This document shows, piece after piece, positions 13,232 to 40,193 of a stretch of 64,000 bases of DNA. Both the position numbers and the translations under genes were made by a program. This DNA is from a virus. The stretch is taken from the IMG/VR virus record IMGVR_UViG_3300024259_002316, positions 1 to 64,000 of that record; one strand, given 5' to 3'. The notes under the pieces are model-generated. The model had not been told where the DNA came from. It saw only the letters and a list, made by a program, of their open reading frames with translations, and ran no database searches. Positions within the stretch are counted from its first letter, which is position 1. Each line of letters opens with the position of its first letter.

Positions 13232-16200
13232 TTACTTATTGTAAGTTTTTCTCAATTGAGCTAAGTCATAATTATCAGCATCTTGATTTTGCTTACCGAG
13301 GGTGAACATATCTGATAACTTTTTACTTAGATCATCTTGAGCATTTCTTACGCTGCTTGCCTCATTAATTTGTACGGTTTGAGACATACCGTCAGAAACA
13401 GTGTCTAGTCCTTTTTTAGCAAATATGGCTTTCTCGATATCTTTAATTTGCTCAGGCTTATAGGCTCTCAACTCATTAATTTTAGTTGGGAGATCAGTAG
13501 CTTCAATTTGTTCTGCTTGAAGCATTCTTCCAGCCACCCTAATAGCCTCGGACTCCGAATCGCTTTCAGCGATTACTGTACCTTTATCTTTTGTAGTTTT
13601 CTCACTATCTAATTCTTCCTGACCCATTTGAGCATCTCCTGTATTCACATCAGGATGATCTTTTGGAGAGTCAGGTTTTGAACCTAACGTTTCGCTTTCA
13701 TGACCAATCATTCCGCTTTCGCTTTTAACCTCTGATTCATTTATTTTTTCGGCATCGAATTTTTCTTCTTGACCAATTGTTCCGCCATCAGAGACAGGTT
13801 GAATATCAGGATCATCAGCTACAGGCTCTTTTGGAGCAAGTTTCTTAGCAATTCTATCTGCAAGGCTTGAAATTCCATCTTTTGCATTTCCAAAGCCCTT
13901 CATATGCATTAGATCTTCATCTATAGAAGCTAATTCTGTTTTTCCTTGACCCTTATCGCCACCTGTATAACTATTATCTCCACCGCTCAATCCTGCCTCA
14001 TCTTCATGACCCATAGTAGCATTCTCTGATGGAATAACAGGTTGAGGTTTATCTTGTGGATTTAGTTCTGTAGGTTCTTGTCCCATTGTGGCATTATCTC
14101 TTGGAACTGATGGTTTTCCTGCTGAAGGGATAGTTTCATTCTCATGCCCCATTTCGCTTCCACCTTCGCCTGCTGTATAGGTTCCGATTTCTGCTGTATC
14201 TTGAGCTTTTTGTTGAGCAATTTCTTTTTCCCCTGCATTTTTATTCATAGCTGCAATAACGCCTGACAGATCCATCTGTGTCTTGCCTACTTTACCGACA
14301 TTCTTTTCCATTACATAAGCTTCCTTAGTTTCTGTTTCGGTCTCTGCTATCATTGGATTATTAATGGGCTCTCCATTGACAGTAACATTAACTTTCGAAC
14401 CTTGCTCTGGAATTCCTCTATTTTTTTCTACAATATCTGATCCATTATTTTGTTCTGCCTCAAAACCTACTTCCATAGGTTTCATTTCCCCGCCTGTTTC
14501 AGGAGCCGCTTCTCCGCCCATTCCTGGCTCTTCAGCAGGTTTCATTGCCATATCTTTAGTTTCATCTAGTTCTCCTGGACCAATTTCTTCTACAGGAGCA
14601 TCGATATCATCAAGAGGAGATTCTTCAATAGGAGCTTCATCACCTATAATTTCTCCTTCTCCCATTTCTTCTTCTATTCCCTCTTGACCTTCTCCTTCTG
14701 CCACTTCGATAGCTTGTTCTAGTTGCTCAACTATATCGATAGGTAGTTCAAGAGTAACTGTTGCTCCATGCTCTTCTTCCATTTCTCCTCCTTCAAACGG
14801 ATCAACTTCTTCAACTACAGGAACATCAGGATCCATATCAGGAGTATCATCAAATGTATCCTCTCCTGCTAACTCATCTGTTAAAAAGTCTTCTCCCTCT
14901 GCGACTGCTATTTTAAGAGCAGAACAAACTTCTGCTGCTTGTCTAATTGTATATCCTGAACGAACTTGATGAGTAATGCATTCTTCATCTCCATCGCAGT
15001 CCGACCAGTTATCTGCTAATTTAATTGCAATCTTCGATGTATAAACGTCTGCTTTTTTCAATCTATTACATACTGATTCAGCCAAAGGTTTGCCTTCGTC
15101 TGGGCCACTTAGACATACAGCATTTGTTCCAAACCTTCTTGCCAACTTCTCTATGCAAGATTCAATTGGGAACTTATCTCCATATCCGCCATATGCCAAC
15201 TTATAATCCTCAAGCACTGAACCTTCTTTACTTGCTGTTTTAATAGTTTTCAACGATCCTGCTTTTTTCAGACCAATAATAGTTTCAACTTGATCTTTCA
15301 ATTCTAGTTGATCAAAATCTGCTTCTGTCATTTTTATAGTTGAAAGAGCCTTCACAAATCTTTGTTTTGCTCTATCGCAAGATGGGCAAAGTGCGCTCGC
15401 CGTTCTAGGCTGCCACTCCCATTGACCATATACTTGTTTAGCGTCTTTAGAAACCATATAAGAAACTTTATATTTCGTACCTGTATCCAAACAAACATGT
15501 TCTCCATTTTCCAATTCTACGGTATTAGCTTTTCCTGTTGCTGGGCTAATAGAACCAATTTTAATATCTGCTTCTGCTGCCTTTTTAACAGCATCTGGAA
15601 GCAACCTTATAGTAGTTGCAAATTTTCTAACTTTAAAATTATCAACTGAAGCTGCTGCTGGAATTTCTCCCATTTCAGTTTCCATTGCACCTGGCCCCGC
15701 TCCGATTTCCTCTTCAGTTGGCATTTCAAATCCTTCTCCTTCAAATCCTTCTTCCACCTCTTCTTCTTCTCCACCCTCTGAAGGAGTTACACCTTGCCAC
15801 TTAGTCACATTCACTTCTACTTTATATGTCATCTCCGAAGAACAATTCCCACATTTTCCTTTACCATCAAGAACATCAACATCATCACTACCGCAAACAG
15901 GGCAAATAGACCCTGGTGGCAATGGTTCAAGATTATCTGTCAACTCTCCCTCTTCCTCTCCAAATGCTCCTGGTTCATCTGTAAATGTCTCCATTGGAGG
16001 AGCACCTACGCCAGGAGTTCCTGGCAATGTTGCTCCAGCACCAGGGGCTTGAGCTGCTCCAGCTTGGCCTCCCATTTCCCCGCCCATCATTTGAGCAGTT
16101 TTCTTGATTTCAGTTTTAGCCTCAGCCATTGTGCATTCATCTGTCTCTTCTGCTGGGCATTCCTCAGCAGGGCATTCTTCCCCATTAATATCAGCATCTA

Positions 16201-18739
16201 TCTCTTCTATAGGTCCTTCTATAATATCTCCGATATCATCTGGAATTATTTCTTCCTCAGCACCATCTTGAATATCTATAATTAATTCTCCATTATTCCC
16301 TACTTCCACCTTAATAACTGCCGCTGCAACGGAGTCATCATCTATCATTTCTTGTGCAAATTTCTTTACACCATCAACAAAAGCAACCTTATCCGTAATA
16401 GGAACTCCAATATCTTCCATTGTGGCTCTGATTTGATATTTACCATCTTCTGGTTTATCTAATTCTTTCATAGCCGACTCAAGAGCATCTGCCTTAGTAA
16501 TAATCTTTGTATCTGCTATCTTATTCATTCTACTTTGCACTTTAGCTTCAACTTTTTCCATTTGTGATTTATTGTTAACTATAAGGCCAACAGTATCAAA
16601 AACGTCCTCTGCCTTCATCCCGAACTGAGCATTAGAAGCTGCTGCCAGAATCAAAGCATCGATTGTAGAAAGTTTATTTTGAGAAGCTATTTTAGCAAAA
16701 TATGAAGCATTAGAAGCAATAAGATCTACATTCTCTTTTTTATGAGGAAGAGAATTAAGAACAGCCAAAAAAGCTACCTTTGATTTCATTTCCGTATCAT
16801 CATTAATAACAGAAGCAACTTTCATAATCTCTTCTGGAGACTTACGATAAGTAGAAATTAAATCAGTAAGAATATTAATAGCAGTTTTTACAAGAGAAAC
16901 AGAATAATCTTTATTAGCCCATCTCTTCAAACCATCAGTCATTGAAATATTTTTCAATTGATCTTCTGTGATAGTTTCGTAATTACCCACAAACTTATGA
17001 CTACTCAATAGATCTCGTATTTGAGCTTGAGTAATTGATTCTGTATAATCTTCTGGAAGATTACCAGCAATATCTCTACTAAAATCATTCCATTGCTTCT
17101 CAGTAATAACATCAGGAACATCCTCAAAATGGATTACAGCATCGCCTAAAGCACTTTGAGTCTTCAATTGATCCTCTGTAATAGTTTCATATGTTCCAGT
17201 TCTCACTTGAGGACTATCAGAAGTTGTATCATTACTTTGCTCAGAACCACCTATTTGTTCTTTACTTTCAGTAATACCCTCATAAACTTCTCCCTCTCTT
17301 GAGTCATCTTTTGTAAGCTGCTTTTCAGTAATCACTTCTTGATTTTCTGCTCCAGCGGCGACTTTTGTAGTTGTATTTTCGGTAGCCATGTTTGCTCCTA
17401 TACTTAATTTAGAATTAATATTTTCATTTAAATTATGTAGATTCTCTTCCAAAGAGATTACCTTATTAATTAGATTTTGACTTAATGCCGAAAAATCCTC
17501 TATTTTTCTTGAAGAATTTTTAGGCATAGTCACATTCCCAAGCCCTCCCATATCAGAAGTTTGACTTCCAGCAGGTTGTGAAGCTTGCTGAGCTGCCATT
17601 TGTTCTGGAGGCAGAGGAGAAGGGAATTGATCAGTCACTATTGGTGCATCTCCATCTGCAGCCGTCACTGGTGGAGAAGGCAATGCTCCATATCCCATTT
17701 CTGTCAATTCATCAAAAATACCTTGAAGATCAGACATCGCCTTTACGAGGTCGCTGACATACTCCATGGATATATTTTCTTTTTGCTTTAACATACTTTT
17801 AACAACAGCTTCCATCTCTGTCATGCTGTTTTTAAGAGATTCGAGTTCTTTCACTCCTCCCATTTTTTTAACAACTTCGCTATCTTCTTCTTGCAAATGT
17901 GCCTCTTTTATAAGTTTTCCAATAGTTTCATTAAAAGATGCTACCTTACTTTCTAGAGCAGGAGCATGAAGAACACATTTTACTCCGCAATCGTGACAAG
18001 CAGGATTAACCACAAAACTATTTTCAATAAATTTTAAGCCATAATTATGTTCAAAAATAGATTGTTCTGAGTGTTTAAGAGTTTTAATATCATCTTTAAT
18101 GCTACCACAAACAGGACATTTATCTTTTTTATCTGTGGGGCTATTATGATAAGAACATTTTAGATCCCCCGTATATTTCCTATTCTTTCTATTGGCAACA
18201 TGAGAACAATAGTCTTCAGAAGTATTGGCATTATTATGACAAATAGAACAAACAGAATTCTCTACTGAGCATCCCATAGAAGTTCCTGTGATATATCCTT
18301 CCTCTATGCCTCTAGCAAGACGAGGATAAGCAATTTTATCTATTCTTCCAATAATATAAATGCCTCCTTCTTTTTGATCGTACCAAGAATGAACACATTC
18401 TCCTCTAGCTTTTTCTACATCATCATTTTGATGATTAGTAAAGAGAGGAACACCTACAAAACTAGAAGTTGCTGTTTTAAGTTCTTTTTCATCAAAAGCA
18501 TCTCCATTATCATTCGGCTCATCTTTTTTGATTGCAAAAACTTTAATATAAAGATGATCTGGATGTTCTTTTGTCGCTTCTTTAAGGTTAAATCCTCCCA
18601 AATCCTCCCCTTCTACTGTAGTAGAGGCGGTTTTTATTTGATTAGGAAGATCGTAAATATCCCAACCATTCCCTGTAGGATTATTAAGCGCTGTAACTTT
18701 ACATTTATGTGAAAAAGTTGCTTTTTTATACATTGCCAT
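13232..18739 (-). CDS. Giant prohead protease fused to acidic scaffold-like region (1835 aa)
   Basis: Residues about 25-270 look like a prohead maturation protease: His103 in LFTNHQND and the Ser-containing GTSMGCSVE at 152-160 are candidate catalytic residues of the T4 gp21-like type. Zinc-binding cysteines are inserted (CSICHN, YCSH, CPVCGS, CHDCGVKC). From about residue 300 the protein becomes long, acidic and low in complexity. It has repeated ITEDQLK/ITEKQ segments (about 470-620), zinc ribbons (CPVCGSDD...CGNC), long Glu-rich tracts and repeated ATMGQE/ATMGHE units near the C-terminus. That part resembles internal scaffold or core material. KTA and KIA sites at domain junctions may be cleavage points. 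The size far exceeds ordinary prohead proteases. A strong internal start at 17389 could make a scaffold-only product. Confidence 0.75.
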   Translation of the reverse strand: MAMYKKATFSHKCKVTALNNPTGNGWDIYDLPNQIKTASTTVEGEDLGGFNLKEATKEHPDHLYIKVFAIKKDEPNDNGDAFDEKELKTATSSFVGVPLFTNHQNDDVEKARGECVHSWYDQKEGGIYIIGRIDKIAYPRLARGIEEGYITGTSMGCSVENSVCSICHNNANTSEDYCSHVANRKNRKYTGDLKCSYHNSPTDKKDKCPVCGSIKDDIKTLKHSEQSIFEHNYGLKFIENSFVVNPACHDCGVKCVLHAPALESKVASFNETIGKLIKEAHLQEEDSEVVKKMGGVKELESLKNSMTEMEAVVKSMLKQKENISMEYVSDLVKAMSDLQGIFDELTEMGYGALPSPPVTAADGDAPIVTDQFPSPLPPEQMAAQQASQPAGSQTSDMGGLGNVTMPKNSSRKIEDFSALSQNLINKVISLEENLHNLNENINSKLSIGANMATENTTTKVAAGAENQEVITEKQLTKDDSREGEVYEGITESKEQIGGSEQSNDTTSDSPQVRTGTYETITEDQLKTQSALGDAVIHFEDVPDVITEKQWNDFSRDIAGNLPEDYTESITQAQIRDLLSSHKFVGNYETITEDQLKNISMTDGLKRWANKDYSVSLVKTAINILTDLISTYRKSPEEIMKVASVINDDTEMKSKVAFLAVLNSLPHKKENVDLIASNASYFAKIASQNKLSTIDALILAAASNAQFGMKAEDVFDTVGLIVNNKSQMEKVEAKVQSRMNKIADTKIITKADALESAMKELDKPEDGKYQIRATMEDIGVPITDKVAFVDGVKKFAQEMIDDDSVAAAVIKVEVGNNGELIIDIQDGAEEEIIPDDIGDIIEGPIEEIDADINGEECPAEECPAEETDECTMAEAKTEIKKTAQMMGGEMGGQAGAAQAPGAGATLPGTPGVGAPPMETFTDEPGAFGEEEGELTDNLEPLPPGSICPVCGSDDVDVLDGKGKCGNCSSEMTYKVEVNVTKWQGVTPSEGGEEEEVEEGFEGEGFEMPTEEEIGAGPGAMETEMGEIPAAASVDNFKVRKFATTIRLLPDAVKKAAEADIKIGSISPATGKANTVELENGEHVCLDTGTKYKVSYMVSKDAKQVYGQWEWQPRTASALCPSCDRAKQRFVKALSTIKMTEADFDQLELKDQVETIIGLKKAGSLKTIKTASKEGSVLEDYKLAYGGYGDKFPIESCIEKLARRFGTNAVCLSGPDEGKPLAESVCNRLKKADVYTSKIAIKLADNWSDCDGDEECITHQVRSGYTIRQAAEVCSALKIAVAEGEDFLTDELAGEDTFDDTPDMDPDVPVVEEVDPFEGGEMEEEHGATVTLELPIDIVEQLEQAIEVAEGEGQEGIEEEMGEGEIIGDEAPIEESPLDDIDAPVEEIGPGELDETKDMAMKPAEEPGMGGEAAPETGGEMKPMEVGFEAEQNNGSDIVEKNRGIPEQGSKVNVTVNGEPINNPMIAETETETKEAYVMEKNVGKVGKTQMDLSGVIAAMNKNAGEKEIAQQKAQDTAEIGTYTAGEGGSEMGHENETIPSAGKPSVPRDNATMGQEPTELNPQDKPQPVIPSENATMGHEDEAGLSGGDNSYTGGDKGQGKTELASIDEDLMHMKGFGNAKDGISSLADRIAKKLAPKEPVADDPDIQPVSDGGTIGQEEKFDAEKINESEVKSESGMIGHESETLGSKPDSPKDHPDVNTGDAQMGQEELDSEKTTKDKGTVIAESDSESEAIRVAGRMLQAEQIEATDLPTKINELRAYKPEQIKDIEKAIFAKKGLDTVSDGMSQTVQINEASSVRNAQDDLSKKLSDMFTLGKQNQDADNYDLAQLRKTYNK
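17387..17401 (-). promoter_or_regulatory. Internal ribosome binding site and in-frame ATG (candidate scaffold start)
   Basis: On the minus strand TAGGAGCAAACATGG places AGGAG five bases before an in-frame ATG (codon 451) of the protease-scaffold gene. Translation from 17389 would give a 1385-residue protein lacking the protease domain, as lambda Nu3 is made inside gene C. The start falls right at the boundary between the protease part and the ITEDQ-repeat region. Confidence 0.5.
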
Positions 18740-18755
18740 TTTTATAATTTCCTAT

Positions 18756-19004
18756 TTAATAATATGTAAGTATTTCTTCTAATCTAGTATTAACTGAATT
18801 TATAAATTCATCATTATCTTTTGTAGTGATTATCTTTTCAAAAGCATCTGCCTTACTAATCTTTTGATCTCTCATTAAATCAAAAATCATCATAGCACTA
18901 CTATTAACTTTTTGTGGAACTGGATTATTATCTTTATCAAAACATATAGTTGACAACTTCTTTTGTTCCATATTTTCATAATTTGATGTTTTTAGTATTT
19001 TCAT
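18756..19004 (-). CDS. Small protein with MKILKTSNY N-terminal tag
   Basis: This 82-residue protein has no recognised family. Its start, MKILKTSNYENMEQKK, is a variant of the tag found at 19373, 31897 and 32297. The remainder is a compact charged helical segment (residues 35-80, with MRDQKISKADAFEKII). It is packed between the protease-scaffold gene and the next tagged gene, with 6-16 bp gaps, so it is part of the same late operon. Confidence 0.65.
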   Translation of the reverse strand: MKILKTSNYENMEQKKLSTICFDKDNNPVPQKVNSSAMMIFDLMRDQKISKADAFEKIITTKDNDEFINSVNTRLEEILTYY

Positions 19005-19010
19005 TTTTTC

Positions 19011-19373
19011 CTATGATAGATATGCCAATATCTCAAAATTATCTGGTTCTCTTTCGTACCAAGTATAAGCCACTGCACTATTATCTATATCTTCTCCTGG
19101 AGTAAATGGATCTTGAGGATTAGCTCCTTTTCTCTGTATGCCTAAACTTCTTCTGCCATTACTTCCCATAAATGAATTCTTAGATACCACTTCTCCAATG
19201 ACCAATCCGTATCCATCTAAAACTTCCCATATAACAGAAACCCCACTATCTGATTCTGGAAATCTTCCATTACCATCTAATCCTCTAGCAGATAAATCAG
19301 CATTAATTTTTTGGCGTAAATTATTATCTATTCTTTCTGCCATTTTATAATTTGATGTTTTTATAATTTTCAT
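19011..19373 (-). CDS. Small protein with MKIIKTSNY N-terminal tag
   Basis: The start is placed at 19373 because the ATG overlaps the stop of the upstream small zinc-ribbon gene (TAATG), GGAGA lies nine bases before it, and it restores the MKIIKTSNY tag. The product has 120 residues with an SARGLDGNGRFPES loop, a VIWEVLDGYG strand and an AYTWYEREPDNFEIL end. It has no recognised family. Co-translation with the zinc ribbon and the 18756 gene is likely. Confidence 0.65.
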   Translation of the reverse strand: MKIIKTSNYKMAERIDNNLRQKINADLSARGLDGNGRFPESDSGVSVIWEVLDGYGLVIGEVVSKNSFMGSNGRRSLGIQRKGANPQDPFTPGEDIDNSAVAYTWYEREPDNFEILAYLS

Positions 19374-19543
19374 TATAATTTTTCTCCACAGGATGGACAA
19401 TATTTCATTCGAGAAGTGAGGCAAGTCCCACAAGAAGAGCAACAAATTCTAGCAGCTTCTTTTTCCTGCTCTTCCATCTGCTCTTTCCTTACTCCAAACG
19501 TATATTTTTTATTATCTTTTTGACCACATTTAAGCATCATCAT
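19373..19543 (-). CDS. Small zinc-ribbon protein (56 aa)
   Basis: This short gene fills the gap between 19373 and 19543. AAGGAG precedes three consecutive ATGs, the first at 19543; the frame stays open for 56 codons and ends in TAATG, overlapping the next gene by one base. The product has a helical charged middle and two cysteine pairs near the C-terminus (CCSSCGTC and YCPSCGEK), the form of a rubredoxin-like zinc ribbon. The function is unknown; similar knuckles occur in other virion-block proteins here. The ribosome site, coupling and motif make it a likely real gene. Confidence 0.7.
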   Translation of the reverse strand: MMMLKCGQKDNKKYTFGVRKEQMEEQEKEAARICCSSCGTCLTSRMKYCPSCGEKL

Positions 19544-19598: not shown

Positions 19599-20075
19599 TT
19601 ATACTAATGGCTCTTTTGCCTGCTGAATTGTTTGTGCTGTTTTGATAATTTTCACATCTCCTCCTTTTACGTGTCTTGGAATATTCATAGGCGCTAATTG
19701 TTCCACCGTATAATTAGGAGCGCCTTTAGGAAATGGAATCCCCCATTTATCAGAAGCATGACTAAGAGCAGCTACTGAGCTAGTAAAATACTCCCCACTT
19801 GGAGCATATACTTTTGCCTTAGGATCATCAGGTAATTTTTTAATCCCCGAAAAGAATCTTTTCTTACCTTCTTTTGTTAAAGAAGGACCCATAATTACAA
19901 AATAATCAGAATTTGTAGTATAATCATGACCTTCCCATCTTATGTAGGAGAGTTGTCCAAGCTCTTTATCAAATCTCTTTTTTAATTTCTGAGATCTTTC
20001 ATGATATCTTGGTTCCCACTTTATCCCTCTATCTTTTATTCTTTTTCTGCCCGAAAATTTAAGTAGTGTCTCCAT
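19599..20075 (-). CDS. Hypothetical head-module protein next to portal
   Basis: This 158-residue basic protein overlaps the portal gene by 17 bp, so the two are translationally linked. It contains IRWEGHDYTTNSDYFVIMG, FFSGIKKLPDD and SGEYFTSSVAALSHA, suggesting a compact alpha/beta fold. Its C-terminus carries the KIIKTAQ motif that recurs at junctions in this genome. It has no recognised family. Its place after the portal suggests a connector or head-completion role, which is only an inference. Confidence 0.65.
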   Translation of the reverse strand: METLLKFSGRKRIKDRGIKWEPRYHERSQKLKKRFDKELGQLSYIRWEGHDYTTNSDYFVIMGPSLTKEGKKRFFSGIKKLPDDPKAKVYAPSGEYFTSSVAALSHASDKWGIPFPKGAPNYTVEQLAPMNIPRHVKGGDVKIIKTAQTIQQAKEPLV

Positions 20076-23000
20076 TCTCCAAATTCCCTATGTATAAAAT
20101 TTGTCCGTGTGGGATAGATGCTCTACTACAACCTATCTTTCCCTTGGAAAGACAATATTCGTACAAAGGGTTCAACCAGTCTTCTACTGAAGCTGTTTTA
20201 ATTAAAGCTTCATCTTCGGCTTTCTTTTTACTTTTACTTGCATCTGCTACGTGTTTAGCAATAGTATCTCTTACTGCATCAATATTTTCATTTACTGAAT
20301 CTTCATTAAATCTAAGCACTCTCCATCCAACATTTGCTAATTTTTGATCTCTATTGAGATCTCTTTGTTGAAAATCTTCTCTCTCATGCCATATTGCTCC
20401 ATCAACCTCTATACCAACTCCGATTTTAGGATAAGCAAAATCAATAGCATAAGGTCTTGCTTCTCCTGGTACCTTCACTTGATATTGAGCAAATAGATCA
20501 TGATTAGTATCCATGGCAGAAAGAGTTCTAAACATTTTTTGTTCTAGCTTTGTAAGCTTAATCATTTTTGGAGGTGGAGCCTGTTGTTCTTCTTGCTGTT
20601 TCTGAGAGCCTCTTTTACCTATTACAGGTAAAGCTCCACTAGCTGCTGCCCCCATAGGAGGTCCCCCCCCTGCACCTCCTGCTGGGGCTCCGCCCATATC
20701 TCCACCCATTCCTCCTTGGAGACTAGGCATCATTTCTCCTCCCGCTTCTGGCGGCATTCCCCCTCCCATATCGCCACCCATTGGGGCTCCTCCCATCCCC
20801 ATCGTTCCTAGATTTCCTGCTTGGTCAGCCCCTCCCACCATACCAGTAGCAGAAGCCATCACCTGCTCTTCTCTTATTTTCTCTACTTCGGAATCATAAT
20901 CAAGATCCATTTCTTCCAAAACTGTTTGGGCTGAAACCATCCCCTTATCATACATTTGCATTAATGTTTGTATCCTATTTGTCTTATCTCTTAATTGTAA
21001 ATCATTCCATGTAAGTTTAGGATATAAGTAAACTGTTTCTCCTACCTCTTTAGACTCTTCTTCGTCTATAAATCCTTGCATCATGGCAACAGGTTTGAAT
21101 AGATTTGTTTCTACCCACGCTTGTAACTTGTTTCTCCAATTATCTAATCTCCTAATAAGAACTTCAATACCAACCTGAGCAGAGGTGTTGCCCTGAATAG
21201 TGACTATTCCATTCCTCATAGTCACAAATAATTCATGAGGAACTGAAAAACAATATATTTTTCCACTATAAGGAACTCTTGTTATTTCTTTTCCTGCATA
21301 TTTTTTAGACTTAGAGCAAAGAGTTGGATTCCTACCTTTAAAACCCTTAGAAATATAAACAACATATTGTTGATGATTAGTTTTATATTGATGTCCCGTC
21401 TTATTGAAATATTTTTTACTATTTTTCTTTTTATTATGCTCTCTAATCTTTACCACATATCCACATTTAAATGCTATTTCTGCAAAATCTTCTGCCAATT
21501 GTTTACTAGAAGTATAATAAGATTCTCCTTTAACTTTTCTATTTTCACCAATATGATTATGAATACAACCATCTCCATTGATCATAGCTTCTATAATAAT
21601 TTCCAAACATTCAGAAGTTAAATTTTTAACAAAAGGAGAAAGCTTTTTATTAATTGCCCCTGAGCCAAAATTATCATTTAAATAAAAAGCCAAATCTTTA
21701 TTCAAAATATCCATATAATCATTTCTATTTCTAATACTCTCTTCATCGAAAGAAGAATAAAATAAATTTTCTATGTCCTCTCTTGCTTTTCCGTTCCTGT
21801 TTTGACCGATCCTAACGGAAGTATAAGTTTTTTCTCCGCTATATTTATGCCAGCTTAACCATCCCTCAGAGACATAATATCCTACTAATTTACAAAAATC
21901 ATAGATAGAATATTCTTCTTCTCCTATCTGGACAGTTTTTTGATATTCTCCTACAAATCCATCCGCCGCTCCTATAAACTTGGCTCTTGGTCTAATATCT
22001 TCTGCTCTTGTAAATTTATACTCATTAGAATCTCTCTTAGCACTCCACATTCTATGATTAGGAGTTACTAAAATGTCTATCTTATCAGTATTAAAATGGA
22101 CCATCTCTCCTTCATAATCATAAACTACTTTCTCATAAGGAAGATGATATTCTATTTCTCTTGTTTCTGGATTATAGCAAGCGATCTTGTCTTTCTTAGG
22201 GTCTATCTCCCAATAATACTTGAAACCAGAGTCACAAAGTGTTGTAGTATCAGCACTTACGCAATATCCCGCCATTTCTCCATTAAGAATTGCCTGATTA
22301 AGCATAAGTCCATCCAAAATCTCTTTACCTACTTGCTCAATTTCAGCCGTTATATTATGTATCTTACCCGTTGCTCCATACCACTCATAATCAAAAGAGT
22401 GATGAGTAACAATAGTCATATTAGGATCATTAGCAACTGCTGACAACTGATTTTGAACATCTTGCAAATCACTACTTGTTGCTGGTCTGTCCTTATCTCC
22501 TACTTTAACAACTCTAACAGGAAGAATTAACCTCTCAGCCACTATCCAGTTAGCTGTCATAATCTTTGTTTTATATGCCAATACTGTGAATAGTCTTTGG
22601 AGCATAGATGTGCCATAAGTCCCATAATCACTTGCATTATGTTTTAAATGACTAATACATCTATCAGATAGTCTCATTGGCTGACCAGATGAAACCGCTC
22701 TAATTAATCCTGCTGGCAAACTGTCGTATATGCTTTTAGGTTCTTTTCTAGCGACAACAAGTTTTAATTCTTCATCAGGAACCAAATAAAATTCAGGATT
22801 ACTTGCAAGAGGATTATCTCTAACATCGATATAATCAGGATTCATTAATTTTATACTTTTAAACGTTCCATCAGCATGGTTACACATTTGTCCATCAAGC
22901 TTCCTGCCCTTACCTTTACAATGAGGACATTCTATTTCCGCAAATGGAAAAACATCTCCCAAAAGGAAATATTCGTGACTAATAGCATTTAATTTCTCTG

Positions 23001-23418
23001 CAAGATCTATTTTTTCTACTAATCTTTCATAAAACTTTAAAATCTTTTTAGACTTACATTCTAATTTAAAACCATTCATAGAGAAATTCGAATAAAAATC
23101 TACTCCCGCTGCCACCTTTGGCTCGTTCATATAGTAGAATCTAGACCATTGCATAATCTCCCTACGTCTACTAGCAATTTGCCAGTTTTGAGGAGTATGC
23201 AATGGGCTAAAGAACATAGGTTGTGTCATTGCGACATTAGCACCAGAGCCTGCAAATTGTGCATTTTTAGTAATTGGTAAATTAACTACCTGAGATTGAG
23301 GGTATCCATTTTTCTGCATAGAAGAACTTGGTGGAGCAGGTGATGGATACGCTCCTGATGCTGCTGCCATTCTTTGTTTATTTTGTGGCGAATTATCTGG
23401 TAAAATGAATTTTGCCAT
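20059..23418 (-). CDS. Portal protein interrupted by an intein and ending in a DUF559/Vsr-like nuclease domain
   Basis: Residues 1-385 and 745-about 880 together form a phage portal: RRREIMQWSRFYYMNEPKVAAGVDFYSNF, a zinc-knuckle-like CPHCKGKG insert, MLQRLFTVLAYKTKIMTANWIVAERL, then after the intein TSAQVGIEVLIRRL and LYPKLTW. The intein occupies residues 386-744. A Gly/Met/Pro-rich linker (about 880-945) leads to residues 955-1062. These read YAIDFAYPKIGVGIEVDGAIWHE and RDxxLANVGWRVLRF, the DUF559/very-short-patch-repair form of the PD-(D/E)XK nuclease fold. The portal forms the dodecameric DNA channel at the capsid vertex. A nuclease tail on it is unusual. AAAGGA precedes the ATG. The C-terminus overlaps the next gene by 17 bp. 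Confidence 0.9.
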   Translation of the reverse strand: MAKFILPDNSPQNKQRMAAASGAYPSPAPPSSSMQKNGYPQSQVVNLPITKNAQFAGSGANVAMTQPMFFSPLHTPQNWQIASRRREIMQWSRFYYMNEPKVAAGVDFYSNFSMNGFKLECKSKKILKFYERLVEKIDLAEKLNAISHEYFLLGDVFPFAEIECPHCKGKGRKLDGQMCNHADGTFKSIKLMNPDYIDVRDNPLASNPEFYLVPDEELKLVVARKEPKSIYDSLPAGLIRAVSSGQPMRLSDRCISHLKHNASDYGTYGTSMLQRLFTVLAYKTKIMTANWIVAERLILPVRVVKVGDKDRPATSSDLQDVQNQLSAVANDPNMTIVTHHSFDYEWYGATGKIHNITAEIEQVGKEILDGLMLNQAILNGEMAGYCVSADTTTLCDSGFKYYWEIDPKKDKIACYNPETREIEYHLPYEKVVYDYEGEMVHFNTDKIDILVTPNHRMWSAKRDSNEYKFTRAEDIRPRAKFIGAADGFVGEYQKTVQIGEEEYSIYDFCKLVGYYVSEGWLSWHKYSGEKTYTSVRIGQNRNGKAREDIENLFYSSFDEESIRNRNDYMDILNKDLAFYLNDNFGSGAINKKLSPFVKNLTSECLEIIIEAMINGDGCIHNHIGENRKVKGESYYTSSKQLAEDFAEIAFKCGYVVKIREHNKKKNSKKYFNKTGHQYKTNHQQYVVYISKGFKGRNPTLCSKSKKYAGKEITRVPYSGKIYCFSVPHELFVTMRNGIVTIQGNTSAQVGIEVLIRRLDNWRNKLQAWVETNLFKPVAMMQGFIDEEESKEVGETVYLYPKLTWNDLQLRDKTNRIQTLMQMYDKGMVSAQTVLEEMDLDYDSEVEKIREEQVMASATGMVGGADQAGNLGTMGMGGAPMGGDMGGGMPPEAGGEMMPSLQGGMGGDMGGAPAGGAGGGPPMGAAASGALPVIGKRGSQKQQEEQQAPPPKMIKLTKLEQKMFRTLSAMDTNHDLFAQYQVKVPGEARPYAIDFAYPKIGVGIEVDGAIWHEREDFQQRDLNRDQKLANVGWRVLRFNEDSVNENIDAVRDTIAKHVADASKSKKKAEDEALIKTASVEDWLNPLYEYCLSKGKIGCSRASIPHGQILYIGNLENGDTT
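21187..22263 (-). mobile_element. Intein with LAGLIDADG endonuclease domain in the portal gene (359 aa)
   Basis: The intein starts at Cys (CVSADTTTL after GEMAGY) and ends with Gly-Asn followed by extein Thr (TIQGN/TSAQ). The block B motif TPNHRM is near residue 80 of the intein. Two dodecapeptide motifs, LVGYYVSEGWL and IIIEAMINGDGCI, mark the homing endonuclease. The C-terminal splice region is IYCFSVPHELFVTMRNG. The penultimate residue is Gly rather than the usual His, and the +1 nucleophile is Thr, as in some phage inteins. The insertion sits in the conserved middle of the portal. Confidence 0.9.
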
Positions 23419-23435: not shown

Positions 23436-23849
23436 TTAGCCGTCTATTGCTAAATCCGTACATGATCTCATAATTTCCTCTTTTCTTTCATCGACATTTA
23501 TAACATTTTTTCTTTTAGGGTCTATTCTAGGGTCTGCACACATGCTAAATTCTTCCGAAAAATACTCATCTTTCACAGTCTCTTTATCATGTTCAGCATG
23601 ATCTTCATCTTTCTTTCTTCTCGCTACTTTTGAAGCAGCAATAGGAGCAGACTGATTTATAAAATCAAGTTTTGGACCATAATCTTTATACCTCTCTCCT
23701 TTTTGAGGAACTTTACGAGGATGAGGCTTACCTTGATGAGGAGTTATAACCTGTTTACAATTAGGACATTGCTGTTCATTTTGGTTTACAGAAGAATTGC
23801 AATACGGACATGTAGAAATTGCCTGAGTAGGATCTTTCTCCCCAGGCAA
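23436..23849 (-). CDS. Zinc-ribbon protein, probably expressed as a -1 frameshift extension of the upstream gene
   Basis: The shown start is a TTG at 23849 with no visible ribosome site. The frame is actually open from the A-run at 23900-23911 onward, directly after an in-frame TAA, and has no ATG or GTG before the zinc ribbon. Residues include CPYCNSS and CPNCKQ, a double-knuckle zinc ribbon, then a charged tail ending in a Cys/Asp segment. The Leu/Lys-rich stretch before the TTG (LADLKPLKDIKELKPLKL) would be translated only after frameshifting. It lies just before the portal gene. I think the main product is a fusion to the protein at 23897-25135; independent TTG initiation is the alternative. 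Confidence 0.6.
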   Translation of the reverse strand: MPGEKDPTQAISTCPYCNSSVNQNEQQCPNCKQVITPHQGKPHPRKVPQKGERYKDYGPKLDFINQSAPIAASKVARRKKDEDHAEHDKETVKDEYFSEEFSMCADPRIDPKRKNVINVDERKEEIMRSCTDLAIDG

Positions 23850-23896
23850 TTTTAATGGTTTTAATTCTTTGATGTCTTTTAAAGGCTTAAGGTCTG

Positions 23897-23911
23897 CTAA
23901 TTTTTTTTTTT
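23897..23911 (-). other. Candidate programmed -1 frameshift / transcriptional slippage site
   Basis: A run of 11 A's on the minus strand (plus-strand T's at 23901-23911) directly precedes the TAG stop of the upstream gene. The 0 frame reads three Lys codons, AAT, TAG. A one-base slip gives four Lys codons and continues into the open frame of the zinc-ribbon gene. The two frames overlap only across this run. Confidence 0.55.
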
Positions 23912-25135
23912 ACTTGCTTCTTTCCAATTAAAAGGTTTTGAAGTGTCGTTAGCCCCTGCTATATCTCCTTTAGATCTAGCACTTTGCAGCCTAGCCTCAG
24001 CAATACCATGTTCAGGAACTACGGGCCTTCTTGTTTGACCTGGCTTTAGTTGCAAATTGCTTGTTTCTGGAATATTCCTGTCAATTTCAAAACGCTTATT
24101 AAGATATCCTCCAACCCAATTCCCATCTTTATCTTTATAGGGTCTTGAGTATTTGTCCATGATGTTCTCACGCCAAATTGTCTCGTAGTCAATATTCCAG
24201 ATATCATCAACGACAAGACCAAACCCTTTATTTCTCTCAACTATATGCCAATCAGAAACTGGCTGATGTAAGAAAGGGTCTATTCTCGATTGTCCTGGTC
24301 CCCATAAAATAGCATTGTCTAAAGATTTATGCTGTGCTGTTTTTGTGATATTGTAGGCAATTTTTTTGTTCTCCCCCACAACGTCTTGAGCTACCTTCTG
24401 AATAGTTTCAGAAACAACCTGAACCGATGCCCCTAGTTCTTTATAAGGAGCTTCAACTGCAACTGGCTCTTCATTACCATAAATAAGATTATAAATAACA
24501 GAAGCATCTGCCAAGCGTTGCTCTTCTCCTTTGGTATCAAAATCATCAAAATAGCTTTTTAAAGCTGCCTGAGCAGAATCTGGTTCTTGTGGATTTTCAC
24601 CTTGTATTTCATTCCATGCAATCTGAAAAGAGTTTCCAGTAGCAGCCATATTTATTAAAGCATCATTCAACTCAGCATGAGTTTTATATTTCTGAGGAGT
24701 TCCCATATCTTCTTGCTGCAAGTATTGCTCCTCTCCTAGCTCGGCAGTATCATTAAAGCTATCATGGCCAAAAGGAGCAGGTATTTGAGCTTTTTTAAGG
24801 TTAAAAGGTTTAGTCATTTTATTTTTTCCTTTAGCGGTAGGAGTCAATACAACAGGAGCACCTTGCTCTTGAGGAGGGGCTACCATATTATTTTGCATAG
24901 TTTCTTGTTGCTCCATCACTTCCATTTGTTGCCTTATCATATCTTGCAATTGTTCAAAACTTTGCACACCATATTGTGACAAACTATCCATATTGGCAAT
25001 ACTAGCTAAAGCATCTTCTGTTGGCAGAGCATTAGATGCATTTAATTGTGTAATAAGCATCTGAAGATAAGAATCCAAAGAGCTTTGGTCATTAATATTT
25101 AGCTGTGCTTTTTTATTTTTCAAATTAAAAGACAC
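23897..25135 (-). CDS. Virion-module protein with repeated FNLKKAQ motifs (412 aa)
   Basis: It starts at GTG (25135) with GGAG six to nine bases upstream inside the end of the previous gene (TAAGTG junction). The N-terminal MSFNLKNKKAQ recurs at about residue 105 (KPFNLKKAQ) and in weaker form at the C-terminus (KPFNWKEAS). Residues 20-100 are Gln/Met-rich and helical; residues 260-370 are more globular (HKSLDNAILWGPGQS, GFGLVVDDIWNIDYE, WVGGYLNKRFE). No family is recognised. The gene ends in the A-run described above. Its position before the portal suggests a head or injected protein. Confidence 0.7.
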   Translation of the reverse strand: MSFNLKNKKAQLNINDQSSLDSYLQMLITQLNASNALPTEDALASIANMDSLSQYGVQSFEQLQDMIRQQMEVMEQQETMQNNMVAPPQEQGAPVVLTPTAKGKNKMTKPFNLKKAQIPAPFGHDSFNDTAELGEEQYLQQEDMGTPQKYKTHAELNDALINMAATGNSFQIAWNEIQGENPQEPDSAQAALKSYFDDFDTKGEEQRLADASVIYNLIYGNEEPVAVEAPYKELGASVQVVSETIQKVAQDVVGENKKIAYNITKTAQHKSLDNAILWGPGQSRIDPFLHQPVSDWHIVERNKGFGLVVDDIWNIDYETIWRENIMDKYSRPYKDKDGNWVGGYLNKRFEIDRNIPETSNLQLKPGQTRRPVVPEHGIAEARLQSARSKGDIAGANDTSKPFNWKEASKKKN

Positions 25136-26544: not shown

Positions 26545-27378
26545 TTACTTGTCAGCGATAAGGGCGTTTGCATATTCGTCCCCAAAAAGTTGTCTCCAGT
26601 ATTCTTTCAAGAAACCTTTATTCTTATCATCAAGATTAGCAATCTTCACAAATTCTGTCTTCTGGGTAGCTTTCTTGTCTTCATCTTTTTTCTTTTTCTT
26701 ATTAAATGGGCATTCTTCACTATCTTTGCCAGGACCAGTTCCATCAGGAACTCCTGGGCCCTTTATTTTACCAGCTTCTTTGGTTTCTCCTTCATCATCA
26801 TCTTCCTCTTTGTTATTTCCATCAGCACCTTCAATTTTTGCTTTTAAAGCATCAGGCAATTTCTCTTGTGCAGGAGTTAATTCAGCTTCTTTAGTCTCTG
26901 CTGTCTTAACTTCTACTTCCCTTGAGGCTGTGCAAGGCTTGCAATCACATTTACCTTCACATTTGCATTCTCCACATGGGCTTTTGCATTTTTCACAAAT
27001 GGCTTCTGCTACCTTAACTTCTTCTTCTGTCTCTCCGCCTTTTTCCTCTTTTGAAGGAACTTCTGGATCATTAGTAAACTTCTCTGAGCCTTCTGCTTTT
27101 GGTTGTCCAGAATCACAGCCTTCTTCGTCTGGGCTCTTAGTGGCTGCAGCGGACTTGTCATCTGACTCTTTCTTAGCATTAGGACCATTCTTAGGCATTG
27201 TTGTTGATTCACCTTCTTGGTGTAGAGGCTCAACATCTAACTGACCACTTGAATCTGCCTCATCTTGTTCGGCAGTTTTGACAGAAGCTGTTTTGATATG
27301 CTCGCTCTTATATTCAGCAACGAAATCTTCAAAACGCTTTGCTTTGCCTGTGCTAATTCTATTAGTAATAAGCTTCAT
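26545..27378 (-). CDS. Acidic disordered protein with cysteine-rich metal-binding cluster
   Basis: This 277-residue protein starts MKLITNRIS, with AAGGAG upstream. Residues about 30-125 are Glu/Lys/Ser/Asp-rich and disordered. A compact cluster near residues 128-150 has nine cysteines in C-x2-C spacing (CEKCKSPCGECKCEGKCDC), suggesting zinc or another metal. A poly-Lys stretch (NKKKKKDEDKK) and a folded C-terminal helix (GFLKEYWRQLFGDEYANALI) follow. KTAS, KTAE and KIAN motifs flank the segments. The function is unknown. Confidence 0.65.
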   Translation of the reverse strand: MKLITNRISTGKAKRFEDFVAEYKSEHIKTASVKTAEQDEADSSGQLDVEPLHQEGESTTMPKNGPNAKKESDDKSAAATKSPDEEGCDSGQPKAEGSEKFTNDPEVPSKEEKGGETEEEVKVAEAICEKCKSPCGECKCEGKCDCKPCTASREVEVKTAETKEAELTPAQEKLPDALKAKIEGADGNNKEEDDDEGETKEAGKIKGPGVPDGTGPGKDSEECPFNKKKKKDEDKKATQKTEFVKIANLDDKNKGFLKEYWRQLFGDEYANALIADK

Positions 27379-31142: not shown

Positions 31143-31580
31143 TTATTCTTTCTCTTTAAACCTACCCCACCAAGAAGAGGCAACTTTTAACTGTTTAGCT
31201 GTCTTAACTCCCTTGGTATTATTTAATGCCTTACTATAATCGACATTAGACCCATCATCCTCAAATATAGATCTTTCATCTCCGAGGATCATGACGTTAA
31301 TCACTTTTGAACCTTTTTCTGTAATTTCTATATTTTCCCCTATAACTTTGATCAAACCTGCATCACTCATTCTCCTAGTCTCTTCATGTCCTACTGTGAT
31401 AGGTTTTTTAAATATCTTCTCTGCCTGCTTCTTTTCTCCTGATCTCCATATATTATATAAAGATCTAGCAGCAACAGGATCTACATAGTTAGGACTTTTT
31501 TGTATCTTATCTGCAAATTCTGGCATAATCTCCATTAAATTATCCCATATAGATGATTGATTTTGACCTTGCTTTTTCAT
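31143..31580 (-). CDS. Hypothetical protein with winged-helix-like segment
   Basis: This 145-residue protein has GGAGGAG upstream of the ATG and a four-base overlap with the previous gene. Residues about 68-105 (GHEETRRMSDAGLIKVIGENIEITEKGSKVI) look like a winged-helix wing and recognition region, as in MarR-like marR/HTH folds. The C-terminus carries VKTAKQLKVASSWW, similar to the junction motifs elsewhere. A DNA-binding role is possible but unproved. Confidence 0.6.
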   Translation of the reverse strand: MKKQGQNQSSIWDNLMEIMPEFADKIQKSPNYVDPVAARSLYNIWRSGEKKQAEKIFKKPITVGHEETRRMSDAGLIKVIGENIEITEKGSKVINVMILGDERSIFEDDGSNVDYSKALNNTKGVKTAKQLKVASSWWGRFKEKE

Positions 31581-31897
31581 TTCTCCTCCATATATTTTTT
31601 AACTATCTTCAGAACCTTCTCTGCCCATTCTCTATCCATATCTTTTTGTTCTTCTGTTAATTCTGAATAAGGTTTAAAACTATCCTCTTCCCACCTGTCA
31701 GATCTCTCTTTAGTTATATCTTCCGATTTTAAAATATCTTTTGCCCAACCCATCCATTGCTCATGTTCTAAATCTGACAACTCTTCGATTAGGTCTTTAG
31801 GTCCATCATTTTCTGCTTTTTTCTCTGATTTACCTAACAAAATAAGTTCATCTTCTGTTAAAAATCTTCCATATTTTTCTGTTTTTATTATTTTCAT
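31577..31897 (-). CDS. Hypothetical protein with MKIIKTEKYGRFLTE tag, copy 2
   Basis: The start at 31897 is chosen because the upstream gene stops five bases earlier and the tag MKIIKTEKYGRFLTE begins there. The longer frame would cover the preceding gene. The 106-residue product is highly acidic with helices (DLIEELSDLEHEQWMGWAKDIL and ERSDRWEEDSFKPY). That part resembles the small RyR-type domain pattern WxxWAxE, but too weakly to name. Its first 15 residues are identical to those of the next gene upstream. Confidence 0.6.
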   Translation of the reverse strand: MKIIKTEKYGRFLTEDELILLGKSEKKAENDGPKDLIEELSDLEHEQWMGWAKDILKSEDITKERSDRWEEDSFKPYSELTEEQKDMDREWAEKVLKIVKKYMEEK

Positions 31898-31905
31898 TTT
31901 ATTAA
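31862..31905 (-). repeat. 44-bp exact direct repeat, copy A (tag-encoding)
   Basis: This copy is identical to 32262-32305. It covers the end of the preceding gene, the ATG and the codons for the MKIIKTEKYGRF tag. The flanking bases diverge at once upstream of the start, and after a few codons within the gene. Confidence 0.95.
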
Positions 31906-32297
31906 GTTGGCTCGAGAAGCATTGGACTCCCAACCTCTCCTTCAAAATCATCATATAATGAAAAATAAAAAACTGGCTTATCTCCATCATAAACTATATA
32001 AGTATTTCCGTCATCAAATTCACTATTAAATTTAAAATTATATACCTTTCCATTATACCTAATAGTCCCATCATTCGGCTCATGCGGAAACTCACCACCT
32101 CTAGGATTTGATTGTATTATTTGAAATCCAGTAATTCTCTCTATATTTTCAAAAACATCTTTTATTTCTTCTTTAGGTTTATTTTGCGCCCACCATTTAT
32201 CTATGGGTCCAATTTTTTTAAAAAAATCTTCCATATCCTTTTCTATATTATTTTCTGTCAGAAATCTTCCATATTTTTCTGTTTTTATTATTTTCAT
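31902..32297 (-). CDS. Hypothetical protein with MKIIKTEKYGRFLTE tag, copy 1
   Basis: The start at 32297 overlaps the upstream stop (ATGA) and gives a 131-residue product. After the tag, residues 16-60 are helical and charged; residues 60-130 are beta-rich (GFQIIQSNPRGG, GTIRYNGKVYNFKFNSEFDDGNTYIVYDGDKPVFYFSLYDD). No family is recognised. The tag and 44 bp of underlying DNA are repeated exactly in the next gene, while the bodies of the two proteins are unrelated. Confidence 0.65.
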   Translation of the reverse strand: MKIIKTEKYGRFLTENNIEKDMEDFFKKIGPIDKWWAQNKPKEEIKDVFENIERITGFQIIQSNPRGGEFPHEPNDGTIRYNGKVYNFKFNSEFDDGNTYIVYDGDKPVFYFSLYDDFEGEVGSPMLLEPT

Positions 32298-32305
32298 TTT
32301 ATTAA
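32262..32305 (-). repeat. 44-bp exact direct repeat, copy B (tag-encoding)
   Basis: This is the partner of 31862-31905, 400 bp away, at the 5' end of the neighbouring gene. The pair shows that the N-terminal tag has been copied at DNA level between otherwise unrelated genes. Confidence 0.95.
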
Positions 32306-32530
32306 TTTTCTCCAACTTCCTCCCATTAAAACTTTTCCAGCATTTACAGTATGCCCGATTGAAACTGTCATACCTTCACTTTCAGCTTCTAACTGTTTTT
32401 TCTCAAGTTCTAATATTTCTCTAATTGCTTCTCTTACTTCTCTAATAGTCATTCCTAGACCATCTGCAAATGCCTTTTCATAACTTTTTTTCTTTTCTTT
32501 ATCTGTTCTATCTATTATTTTTACTTCCAT
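32294..32530 (-). CDS. Small helical protein (78 aa)
   Basis: The likely start is the ATG at 32530 (MEVKIIDRT); an in-frame ATG at 32545 adds five residues. The product is a charged helical hairpin (KSYEKAFADGLGMTIREVREAIREILELEKKQLE) with a Gly-rich end, GKVLMGGSWRKLIK. Its stop overlaps the next ATG (ATGA). It has no recognised family. Confidence 0.55.
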   Translation of the reverse strand: MEVKIIDRTDKEKKKSYEKAFADGLGMTIREVREAIREILELEKKQLEAESEGMTVSIGHTVNAGKVLMGGSWRKLIK

Positions 32531-37073: not shown

Positions 37074-40000
37074 TTATCCTGGTGGTCCACCACGATATCT
37101 TTGTAAATTACCATATAATCTAGACCTATTTTCCAAACTATTAGCCACCTGTTTCCCGCCCCCTACTCCATATATTCCACCCTGCATATTCCTCCATACT
37201 ATTTGATTCCCTCCAGGATTACCCAAATCTACTACTCTAGATTGTGGCAATCTGCTTACTTGTCTTTCAACCGCTATATAGCATGCTCCTGCTATACAGT
37301 CAACCACATCATCACTTTTTACTCCATCTCCCTCTTGCTTTGGAAGAACTTTAAAACCTGTTGGAGTAAATTTTCTCTGAAGCTCGATCATTTCATTATA
37401 CAAAAGATTATCATATGGAATAGACAACCTTCCTGTATTAATAAGATTTTCTAACTCTTTATAAATAGCAAACTTATATGTCGGTAAAAACTTTGTTTCT
37501 TTATTCGGTATTCCTGCTTTTCTCATTTTTAAAATACTTTCCTGAGAAGTAAAAGCGTCATAAGTGATTAAACCTATATGGAATCTTCTCTTCAAATTAA
37601 TAACATAATGCATTACTTCATTAGGGTTGATAGCCCCATTTATAGGTTGCCAATATTTAATATGATCAACTATAACTTTAAAATCTGCTTTTCTAGTTTG
37701 TTGATTTAAAAAATATTCTTTATGCACTACTGCTAAAGCATAATTATGACTAGAAGTAGCAGGGTCCAAATGAACAAAATAAACTTTTCCAGGAGACCCA
37801 ATAGAAACATTTTTTAAATTATTTCCTACAAAACAGGATTTAACTTGGTCTTCCGTGAAGAAACTTTCCAAACCTGTTCCGCTAAACTCTGCCCCAAACT
37901 CCATATTAAATTCTGTTTCTGACATAGTATTATTATCAGATCTTAAAGATTCTCTTGTGTGATATGGACTAACATCCCATGTTGCCAATCTCATAGAAAG
38001 TCTTGTAGGGAGATTCTTAGCATTATTAAAAAGCTCATAAAATTTTCCCTCCTTAGCTCTTGGAGATGATATACTAATTATTTTACCATCATATATTCTT
38101 TGCTGTATAACTTTTTGACCATGTTCATTCTCTACAAACTCTCCATTCTCATCTCGAGCATAGATTTTTCTCACATAAGTTTGAACTGTTGGAGTCAAAG
38201 CGGCATAAATACGATCACCAGATGAAGAGCCTCCCGTTTGCTTATAGGAAGCAACCTCATCAAGAATAAGAACTATACAACCCATGCCAAGCAATGAGTC
38301 AGAATTACTGTGACCCACAATAATACCTATAGACCCTTTACGTTGAGGCAATCCTTTCTCTTTAAATTCTTTATTATTAATTTTATCTTGGGGAGTCAAA
38401 AGAAATATTGATCCTGCCGATAAACCATCTTTCATATATTTATCTTTAAAATATTCACTATAATATATCTTCTCTCTAATTTCAGAAAAAGCAAGATTTG
38501 CCTGAGGTTTTGAATTAGCCACTGTTAAAATATTAATAGTATTAGCAGATGACAATTCATACACTCTATAGGGGTCTCCTCCCTCACATTCTAATAATTT
38601 CATTGCTTCATACAAAGCTATAATACTTACAATAAAATCTTTTCCACTGTTGTGAGTTATAAATCCTTGTGCCACAAAATTTTGCAACGATTTTTTATGG
38701 GACACACTAAGGTCAAATGTCCTTTTTTTTCCTATATTTTCAATATTTTTTACTTTATAAAATCCGAATGGATGATCATCTAAATGATTTGTTTTTATTT
38801 TTTCATCAATTTTAAAAAGTTTTTTTTCCGCATCATTAATATATTTATCCTTACCTATAAATCCTATTTCATCTAAAAATATCCTTAAATATTTTTTTCT
38901 ACTAAAATATACTATGTAACAAAATGTATTATATTCTCTTAAAATTTTCTTTTCATCAATAATTTTACTAACAACTTTTTTCTTTCTCAAATAAGATATA
39001 ATCCCAAATTTATGTAATAATTGTTGAATTAATTGAGCTTGCTCCTTATTAACTGTTGTAAATTCACAAGTAGACAATTTCTTATTTCTTCTCGTATTTA
39101 AGTTACCATCACAACTAAATAAAGCTTTCAAATATGAAGAAATAACATTTTTAGGACATCTAAACAATTCTAATGGAACCGTTTTGTAATGACAGGTTTT
39201 CCCCATTAATTCCCATTTTTCTAACAACTTCACTAAATCGTTTTTATCTCTTCTTGAGAAATTTCTTTTTCTTTTTTCACAATATTCTGTTTTATTAACA
39301 TATTGTTCTGATGTAATCTTATATTGATGTTTTTTACTCCTCGCCTTTGTCCAAGGATCATTAAATATTTTAAGATTATTGCTAACACTGTTTAATCTAT
39401 TAGTTAAATCTTGTAGAATTTCTTTATTGTCACAAGTAAAAAATGTGGATCTTTGACTACAGTTCCCATCTGCCGTCATGTATCCCAGAAGAGCGGCTTC
39501 GTCTTCGTTTATTTCCTTTGACTTCCCAAAAAATGGAATTTCTTCACATATAGAAACCATATCATTTTCTATCTCTATATCTTTCAACTGAACCCATCCT
39601 CTTTGAGTTAAAAATGGGTGATTTAATGTGCATTCTATTTTATGACCAGAATTAGTTATTAATTCATAACAGTCCCTTTTTCCCTGAAAAATAATTTCTG
39701 CATCTTCTATTTTAACCATTTCGTTTTGATCTTCATCATAAGTCCATGAATCTATTTTCTTAATCTCTTTATCATATAATTCTCCTATTGTATTAAGGGA
39801 CCCATCTTTAGGGTTGATAATAGTAGTATCCTCTGATAGGCACCTTCTGCCCCACACCAAAACTAATTCTCTAAACAACTCTCCATTTTCATATTTTTCT
39901 AAAAAATTTCCTTTATCATCTTCATCAAGCTGAGCCTGTTCTATTAGCTCTTTTTCTGACTCTGTTAGCTCTAAATTCTCATTTCCTAAAGTTCCCCTAT

Positions 40001-40193
40001 AAAAAGTCTTTAGCATAATTTTTTGCATAGGAAATAATTGAAGAGGATTAGTGGGATGGTAAGGCAAACCTAACCACTCTCTACTCTCTACAAATGTAAC
40101 TATATCTGGAATATCTTTTTTTACATTATGATTAACATCGGTTTGTATATCATTAATTAGATCTCCTATAGATTGTTTTTTTGTTTTAGCCAT
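37074..40193 (-). CDS. terL: Terminase large subunit (TerL) with intein in the Walker A loop
   Basis: The exteins total 641 residues. The N-terminal ATPase has its P-loop split: VLVWGRR before the intein and SGKDFIVSI after it, together WGRRSGKD. Walker B is VLILDEVAS near residue 640. The C-terminal nuclease region has FVHLDPATSSHNYALAVVH (about residue 808), LITYDAFTSQESI and a final DDVVDCIAGACYIA. The terminase docks on the portal, pumps DNA into the prohead and cuts the concatemer. The intein spans residues 118-515. GGGAG precedes the ATG. It lies downstream of two appendage proteins, and the portal is separated from it by about 14 kb of small genes, which is unusual. Confidence 0.93.
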   Translation of the reverse strand: MAKTKKQSIGDLINDIQTDVNHNVKKDIPDIVTFVESREWLGLPYHPTNPLQLFPMQKIMLKTFYRGTLGNENLELTESEKELIEQAQLDEDDKGNFLEKYENGELFRELVLVWGRRCLSEDTTIINPKDGSLNTIGELYDKEIKKIDSWTYDEDQNEMVKIEDAEIIFQGKRDCYELITNSGHKIECTLNHPFLTQRGWVQLKDIEIENDMVSICEEIPFFGKSKEINEDEAALLGYMTADGNCSQRSTFFTCDNKEILQDLTNRLNSVSNNLKIFNDPWTKARSKKHQYKITSEQYVNKTEYCEKRKRNFSRRDKNDLVKLLEKWELMGKTCHYKTVPLELFRCPKNVISSYLKALFSCDGNLNTRRNKKLSTCEFTTVNKEQAQLIQQLLHKFGIISYLRKKKVVSKIIDEKKILREYNTFCYIVYFSRKKYLRIFLDEIGFIGKDKYINDAEKKLFKIDEKIKTNHLDDHPFGFYKVKNIENIGKKRTFDLSVSHKKSLQNFVAQGFITHNSGKDFIVSIIALYEAMKLLECEGGDPYRVYELSSANTINILTVANSKPQANLAFSEIREKIYYSEYFKDKYMKDGLSAGSIFLLTPQDKINNKEFKEKGLPQRKGSIGIIVGHSNSDSLLGMGCIVLILDEVASYKQTGGSSSGDRIYAALTPTVQTYVRKIYARDENGEFVENEHGQKVIQQRIYDGKIISISSPRAKEGKFYELFNNAKNLPTRLSMRLATWDVSPYHTRESLRSDNNTMSETEFNMEFGAEFSGTGLESFFTEDQVKSCFVGNNLKNVSIGSPGKVYFVHLDPATSSHNYALAVVHKEYFLNQQTRKADFKVIVDHIKYWQPINGAINPNEVMHYVINLKRRFHIGLITYDAFTSQESILKMRKAGIPNKETKFLPTYKFAIYKELENLINTGRLSIPYDNLLYNEMIELQRKFTPTGFKVLPKQEGDGVKSDDVVDCIAGACYIAVERQVSRLPQSRVVDLGNPGGNQIVWRNMQGGIYGVGGGKQVANSLENRSRLYGNLQRYRGGPPG
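38649..39842 (-). mobile_element. Intein with LAGLIDADG endonuclease domain in terL (398 aa)
   Basis: It begins at Cys (CLSEDTTI after WGRR) and ends ITHN/SGKD, giving the canonical His-Asn end and a Ser +1 nucleophile. Block B is CTLNHPFLT. The two dodecapeptide motifs are LLGYMTADGNC and YLKALFSCDGNL; the C-terminal region is FDLSVSHKKSLQNFVAQGFITHN. Insertion in the ATP-binding loop is a favoured intein site because loss of the intein must be precise to keep the enzyme. Confidence 0.93.

Follow-up and report, generated by a model that had tools for sequence, protein, structure and literature searches.

Body gene, A-run and zinc-ribbon frame

The locus studied here is a junction of two overlapping reading frames on the minus strand of a 64,000-nucleotide stretch of viral DNA (hereafter the window), which covers positions 1 to 64,000 of the IMG/VR virus record IMGVR_UViG_3300024259_002316 and is part of a viral record of 90,403 bases. 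The upstream gene, referred to as the body gene (23897..25135, −), starts with GTG and encodes a short product of 412 amino acids (aa), as supported by its open reading frame and by homologues in 75 viral loci. Alignment of the relatives placed the conserved core of the body protein at residues 260–407, the last of which (402–407) form a conserved FNWKEA motif (23915..23932, −) just ahead of a run of 11 adenines (A11; 23901..23911, −); N403, W404, K405, E406 and A407 were invariant in the 18 aligned relatives. In frame 0, the 3′-end of the gene reads GAA GCA AGT AAA AAA AAA AAT TAG, the TAG (23897..23899, −) being the stop of the short product, and the third (+1) frame is terminated by a TAA (23887..23889, −) 11 nucleotides (nt) past the run.

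The −1 frame encodes a 157-aa zinc-ribbon tail (23436..23909, −) that would be reached via a slip on the run. This frame is closed by a TAA at 23912..23910, made up of a T and the run's two leading A's, is open from 23909 to its stop at 23436, and shares a 13-nt overlap with the body frame. Its zinc ribbon, CPYC-x10-CPNC, occupies tail residues 34–51 (23757..23810, −), and a DLAIDG motif (23439..23456, −) lies at the C-terminus, where most relatives have D-L-x-I-D-G-like ends as well. Neither ATG nor GTG precedes the zinc ribbon in the window, the sole weak start being a TTG at 23849. The A11 run, the frame geometry, the coordinates 23436..25135 and the lack of an ATG or GTG start in the downstream frame had all been given in a preliminary description made from the DNA letters, and each was borne out. 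A11 is the longest homopolymer of the window, the next-longest A/T run having 9 bases, and runs of nine or more A's are rare in 14 records of this phage group. IMG/VR was searched for another copy of the junction seen in the window, and none was found.

Conservation of the run, the tail and the product pair

Viral contigs were searched for homologues of the body protein, twice by close search and once with a profile, and the widest search yielded the 75 distinct loci. The junction was parsed in 66 distinct contexts, the window included. In 64 of the 66 contexts the junction holds an A-run, comprising 39 A10, 18 A9 and 7 A11 runs with none shorter or longer, so that the comparison of homologues for run conservation, proposed in the preliminary description, turned out strongly positive. 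A pyrimidine (49 T and 15 C) invariably precedes the run, and the base that follows it is mostly G (57/64). The run is not an amino-acid effect, because Lys-Lys-Lys elsewhere in these loci is written AAA-AAA-AAA in only 4 of 157 cases, whereas the junction run is unbroken in 64 of 64, even in L068, which has 50% GC and uses AAA for 16% of its Lys codons but still keeps an A9 run. In L003, L010–L013 and L016, extra segments separate FNWKEA from the end of the body, and the run is located at the new end. Elsewhere in loci L023–L095, eight more runs of nine or more A's were observed in sense coding sequence.

According to the frame that is encoded in the DNA, two classes were distinguished. In class S (55 contexts), frame 0 encodes the short protein and the tail frame lies in −1, with the 0-frame stop at a median 3 nt past the run versus 36 expected. 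In class L (nine relatives), body and tail form a single open frame, yet an A10 or A11 run is retained, and the shifted frames end soon past it (medians: 1 and 6 nt; P = 0.02 and 0.005). Class L members are scattered on the core-domain tree, amounting to 9 changes of the encoded frame, of which at least 6 are forced by starred branches; L028 (class L, A11) and L033 (class S, A10), for example, differ by one A at the run. Because class L relatives on scattered branches retain both the run and the nearby stops in the other frames, what is conserved is the pair of products, short and long, together with the run, and not the encoded frame.

The tail itself is under purifying selection, as nine pairs of relatives yielded nonsynonymous rates (dN) of 0.10–0.38 against synonymous rates (dS) of 0.53–1.84, i.e. 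dN/dS of 0.15–0.29, and therefore it is translated. The four Cys of the ribbon, arranged in two CxxC pairs, are conserved at 90–100%, and Pfam zinc-ribbon models match the tail only below their cut-offs. The deep branch L091 still has the zinc ribbon, and L095 retains the run and the tail but has lost the ribbon. Moreover, the tail frame has its first ATG, GTG or TTG only past the ribbon in L004 (residue 118), L010 (residue 73), L011 (residue 132) and L013 (residue 148). Since these relatives have no start before or within the ribbon, the ribbon is, by the known rules of initiation as applied to these sequences, expressible only as a fusion. The body protein encoded by L091 (L091:2592-7268) has 1558 aa and carries an apparent intein or Hint-like insertion.

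Level at which the slip occurs

The conservation of the run and its geometry in 64 of the 66 contexts, the purifying selection on the tail and the startless tails of several relatives strongly support a single gene whose two frames are fused by a programmed −1 slip, equivalent to a change of +1 nt in the mRNA. Stop-codon reassignment was ruled out, as the stop of the short form is TAG, TAA or TGA and the two frames differ. A base missing from the assembled run and a TTG start had been named as alternatives in the preliminary description; a sequence error in the run, or a separate gene translated from the TTG or from a coupled start, is hardly credible now. Homopolymers are error-prone and the window does offer the TTG at 23849, but the same geometry recurs in 55 distinct contexts, the run is concordant among relatives that were sampled independently, the nine one-frame relatives keep it too, and several relatives have no start before or within the ribbon.

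The slip quite probably takes place at the level of transcription, on the 9–11 A's and by the RNA polymerase of the host, which is the likely agent since no multisubunit phage RNA polymerase gene was found in the 14 records. The polymerase would slip on the run and give rise to mRNAs with extra or missing A's. From the window, one added A (A12) would join the frames into the long form, and the unslipped mRNA would give the short form; in relatives with the long form in their DNA, slipped mRNAs would conversely give the short form. The short form would thus end just past the run, and the long form would consist of the same body plus the C-terminal zinc-ribbon tail.

Programmed −1 ribosomal frameshifting, in which the ribosome slips back one base on A_AAA_AAA, or on A_AAA_AAG where this is in register, is in our judgement unlikely, although a slippery A heptamer is on offer in each phase of a 9–11 A run and A_AAA_AAA is present in the 0 register. 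Seven bases would be enough for a ribosomal heptamer, and A_AAA_AAG requires just six A's, yet no run has fewer than nine; at nine A's, selection against slippage begins to show in a large proportion of bacterial genomes (PMC1088944). A_AAA_AAG, the strongest heptamer, is out of the 0 register in most A10 members. Nor were conserved stimulators detected among Shine–Dalgarno-like elements and hairpins: pairing of an upstream Shine–Dalgarno-like element was no better than in shuffled sequence and no such element was held in common, no downstream hairpin was found at a common position among the relatives, and Rfam gave no match. The nine-A floor, the lack of such conserved stimulators and the swapping of the encoded frame together favour polymerase slippage over ribosomal slippage, as do frame layouts reminiscent of Thermus dnaX, and transcription and the ribosome may both contribute. 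Accordingly, from the −1 frameshift joining two genes that was originally put forward, the fusion is strongly supported through the 64/66 geometry and the selection on the tail, while the slip more probably happens during transcription than on the ribosome; the fused product then called minor need not be minor, being directly encoded in nine relatives.

Several observations weigh against transcriptional slippage. The long frame lies in −1 (all 55 class S contexts) or in 0, and in +1 in 0 of the 64 contexts, which suits a one-way ribosomal −1 shift at least equally well. In class S the stop of the third frame is no closer to the run than by chance (P = 0.08). The A9 members show some excess of downstream RNA structure, the mean z of folding at 60 nt being about −1.5 versus a background of −0.15, as ribosomal frameshifting would have it, even though this structure has no fixed place. 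L097 has neither the run nor the zinc ribbon, and L093 (L093:3414-4570) has the zinc ribbon but lacks the run and carries an apparent single-base frame break within the core, apparently reflecting either a sequence error or loss of the slip site. As a separate observation, the downstream RNA structure of the A9 members L074, L075, L081, L083, L085 and L089 is predicted to be stabler than that of A10 members.

The run could also change its length during replication, i.e. genomic phase variation, which would produce mixed populations of short-coding and long-coding phages. The single A that separates L028 from L033 and the roughly nine switches of the encoded frame on the tree are in keeping with this, but lengths are confined to 9–11 with the third frame never encoded, and near-identical contigs from different samples have identical run lengths, which makes phase variation very improbable. 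Taken together, it is fairly likely that the junction represents a deeply conserved site of programmed transcriptional slippage within a gene for phage morphogenesis, at which the products and not the encoded frame are under selection and the frame has been swapped repeatedly.

Phage group, gene neighbourhood and known slippage systems

No homologue of the body protein was found in GTDB species genomes with the patterns used, and a comparison with 50,697 phage records gave no match to its family. With Bacillus phage G, identity amounts to 54.7% for the capsid protein and about 31% for the portal; by these identities, the uncultured giant phages of the group are distant relatives of phage G, and some relatives' records are huge (548 kb and 494 kb). 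Bacillus phage G (Donellivirus) has a TerL–portal–capsid order similar to that of the window, but between its TerL and portal no homologue of the slipping gene is detectable.

In the window, TerL, portal, a protease-like gene and the capsid gene are clustered together. The portal gene (20059..23418, −; phrog_16240 portal, E 2e-40) is directly downstream of the junction, beginning about 21 nt past the zinc-ribbon frame, and the portal start falls within −50 to +80 nt of the tail end in 62 of the 63 measurable contexts, the gap being 1.3 kb in L042; for L091, extending the locus showed that the portal comes next. For the body protein, no family match pointed to a function and no solved structure matched convincingly, and fold predictions of body and tail were poor (predicted local distance difference test scores of 48 and 60). 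From its position, our guess is that it could be a head or portal-vertex assembly protein, of which tailed and untailed copies might be used in a set ratio.

Other features of the neighbourhood were noted as well. Within the portal gene there is an intein-like insertion that includes a LAGLIDADG part, and close to the C-terminal end lies a DUF559/MTES_1575 nuclease-like domain. TerL (1039 aa; 37074..40193, −) has its terminase matches in two stretches plus an unrelated N-terminal helicase-like match, and so may be interrupted or fused. K-x-A motifs (KTA, KVA, KKA and KEA) are 3–5 times commoner than in shuffled sequence, frequently as part of FNLKxA-like repeats, in proteins encoded at 13232..18739, 23897..25135 and 26545..27378 (−), and might be cleavage sites of a maturation protease. 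Several small proteins encoded at 18756..19445 and 31577..32315 (−) share a near-N-terminal MKI[IL]KT(S/E)x(Y).

Slippage on A-runs and frameshifts in phages are both already known kinds of event, and the literature searched, which takes in only a minority of subscription journals, yielded no description of a site like this in any gene for phage assembly. If the proposal is true, it provides a conserved example, from the assembly of phages, of protein pairs made by slippage, in a family unmatched in those phage records, and a natural series of 64 run contexts in two frame layouts for probing the slipping of polymerase or ribosome. Gene callers would split or fuse the gene according to the assembled run and miss one of the two products each time. 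It also makes testable why a portal-adjacent protein would be needed in tailed and untailed copies.

Among known systems, dnaX of Thermus thermophilus produces tau and gamma by transcriptional slippage on an A9 run (PMC5009743, PMC1088944), with stops in both other frames terminating the slipped products (PMC5009743). The phage junction resembles it in that the shared part has an A-run close to its end and one gene would give short and long products, and the class L relatives have an equal layout, with nearby stops in both other frames; dnaX, however, is no phage gene and encodes a polymerase subunit, and most phage members are reversed, with the short form encoded and the long form presumably made via the slip. 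In insertion sequence (IS) elements, orfA and orfB are fused through transcriptional slippage at A-runs (PMC1088944), and there too a conserved run of about nine A's joins two frames of which the downstream one has no start of its own; the phage locus differs in having no transposase, in fusing a zinc-ribbon tail and in that both products seem needed. The phage tail assembly chaperones gpG/gpGT are made by −1 ribosomal frameshifting (PMC5009743) and likewise represent a phage morphogenesis gene yielding a short and a frameshifted, extended protein, but the gene described here adjoins the portal rather than the tape measure gene, its bodies are 230–1558 aa (412 aa in the window, and thus not short), its site has 9–11 A's, and no sequence relation to gpG/gpGT was found.
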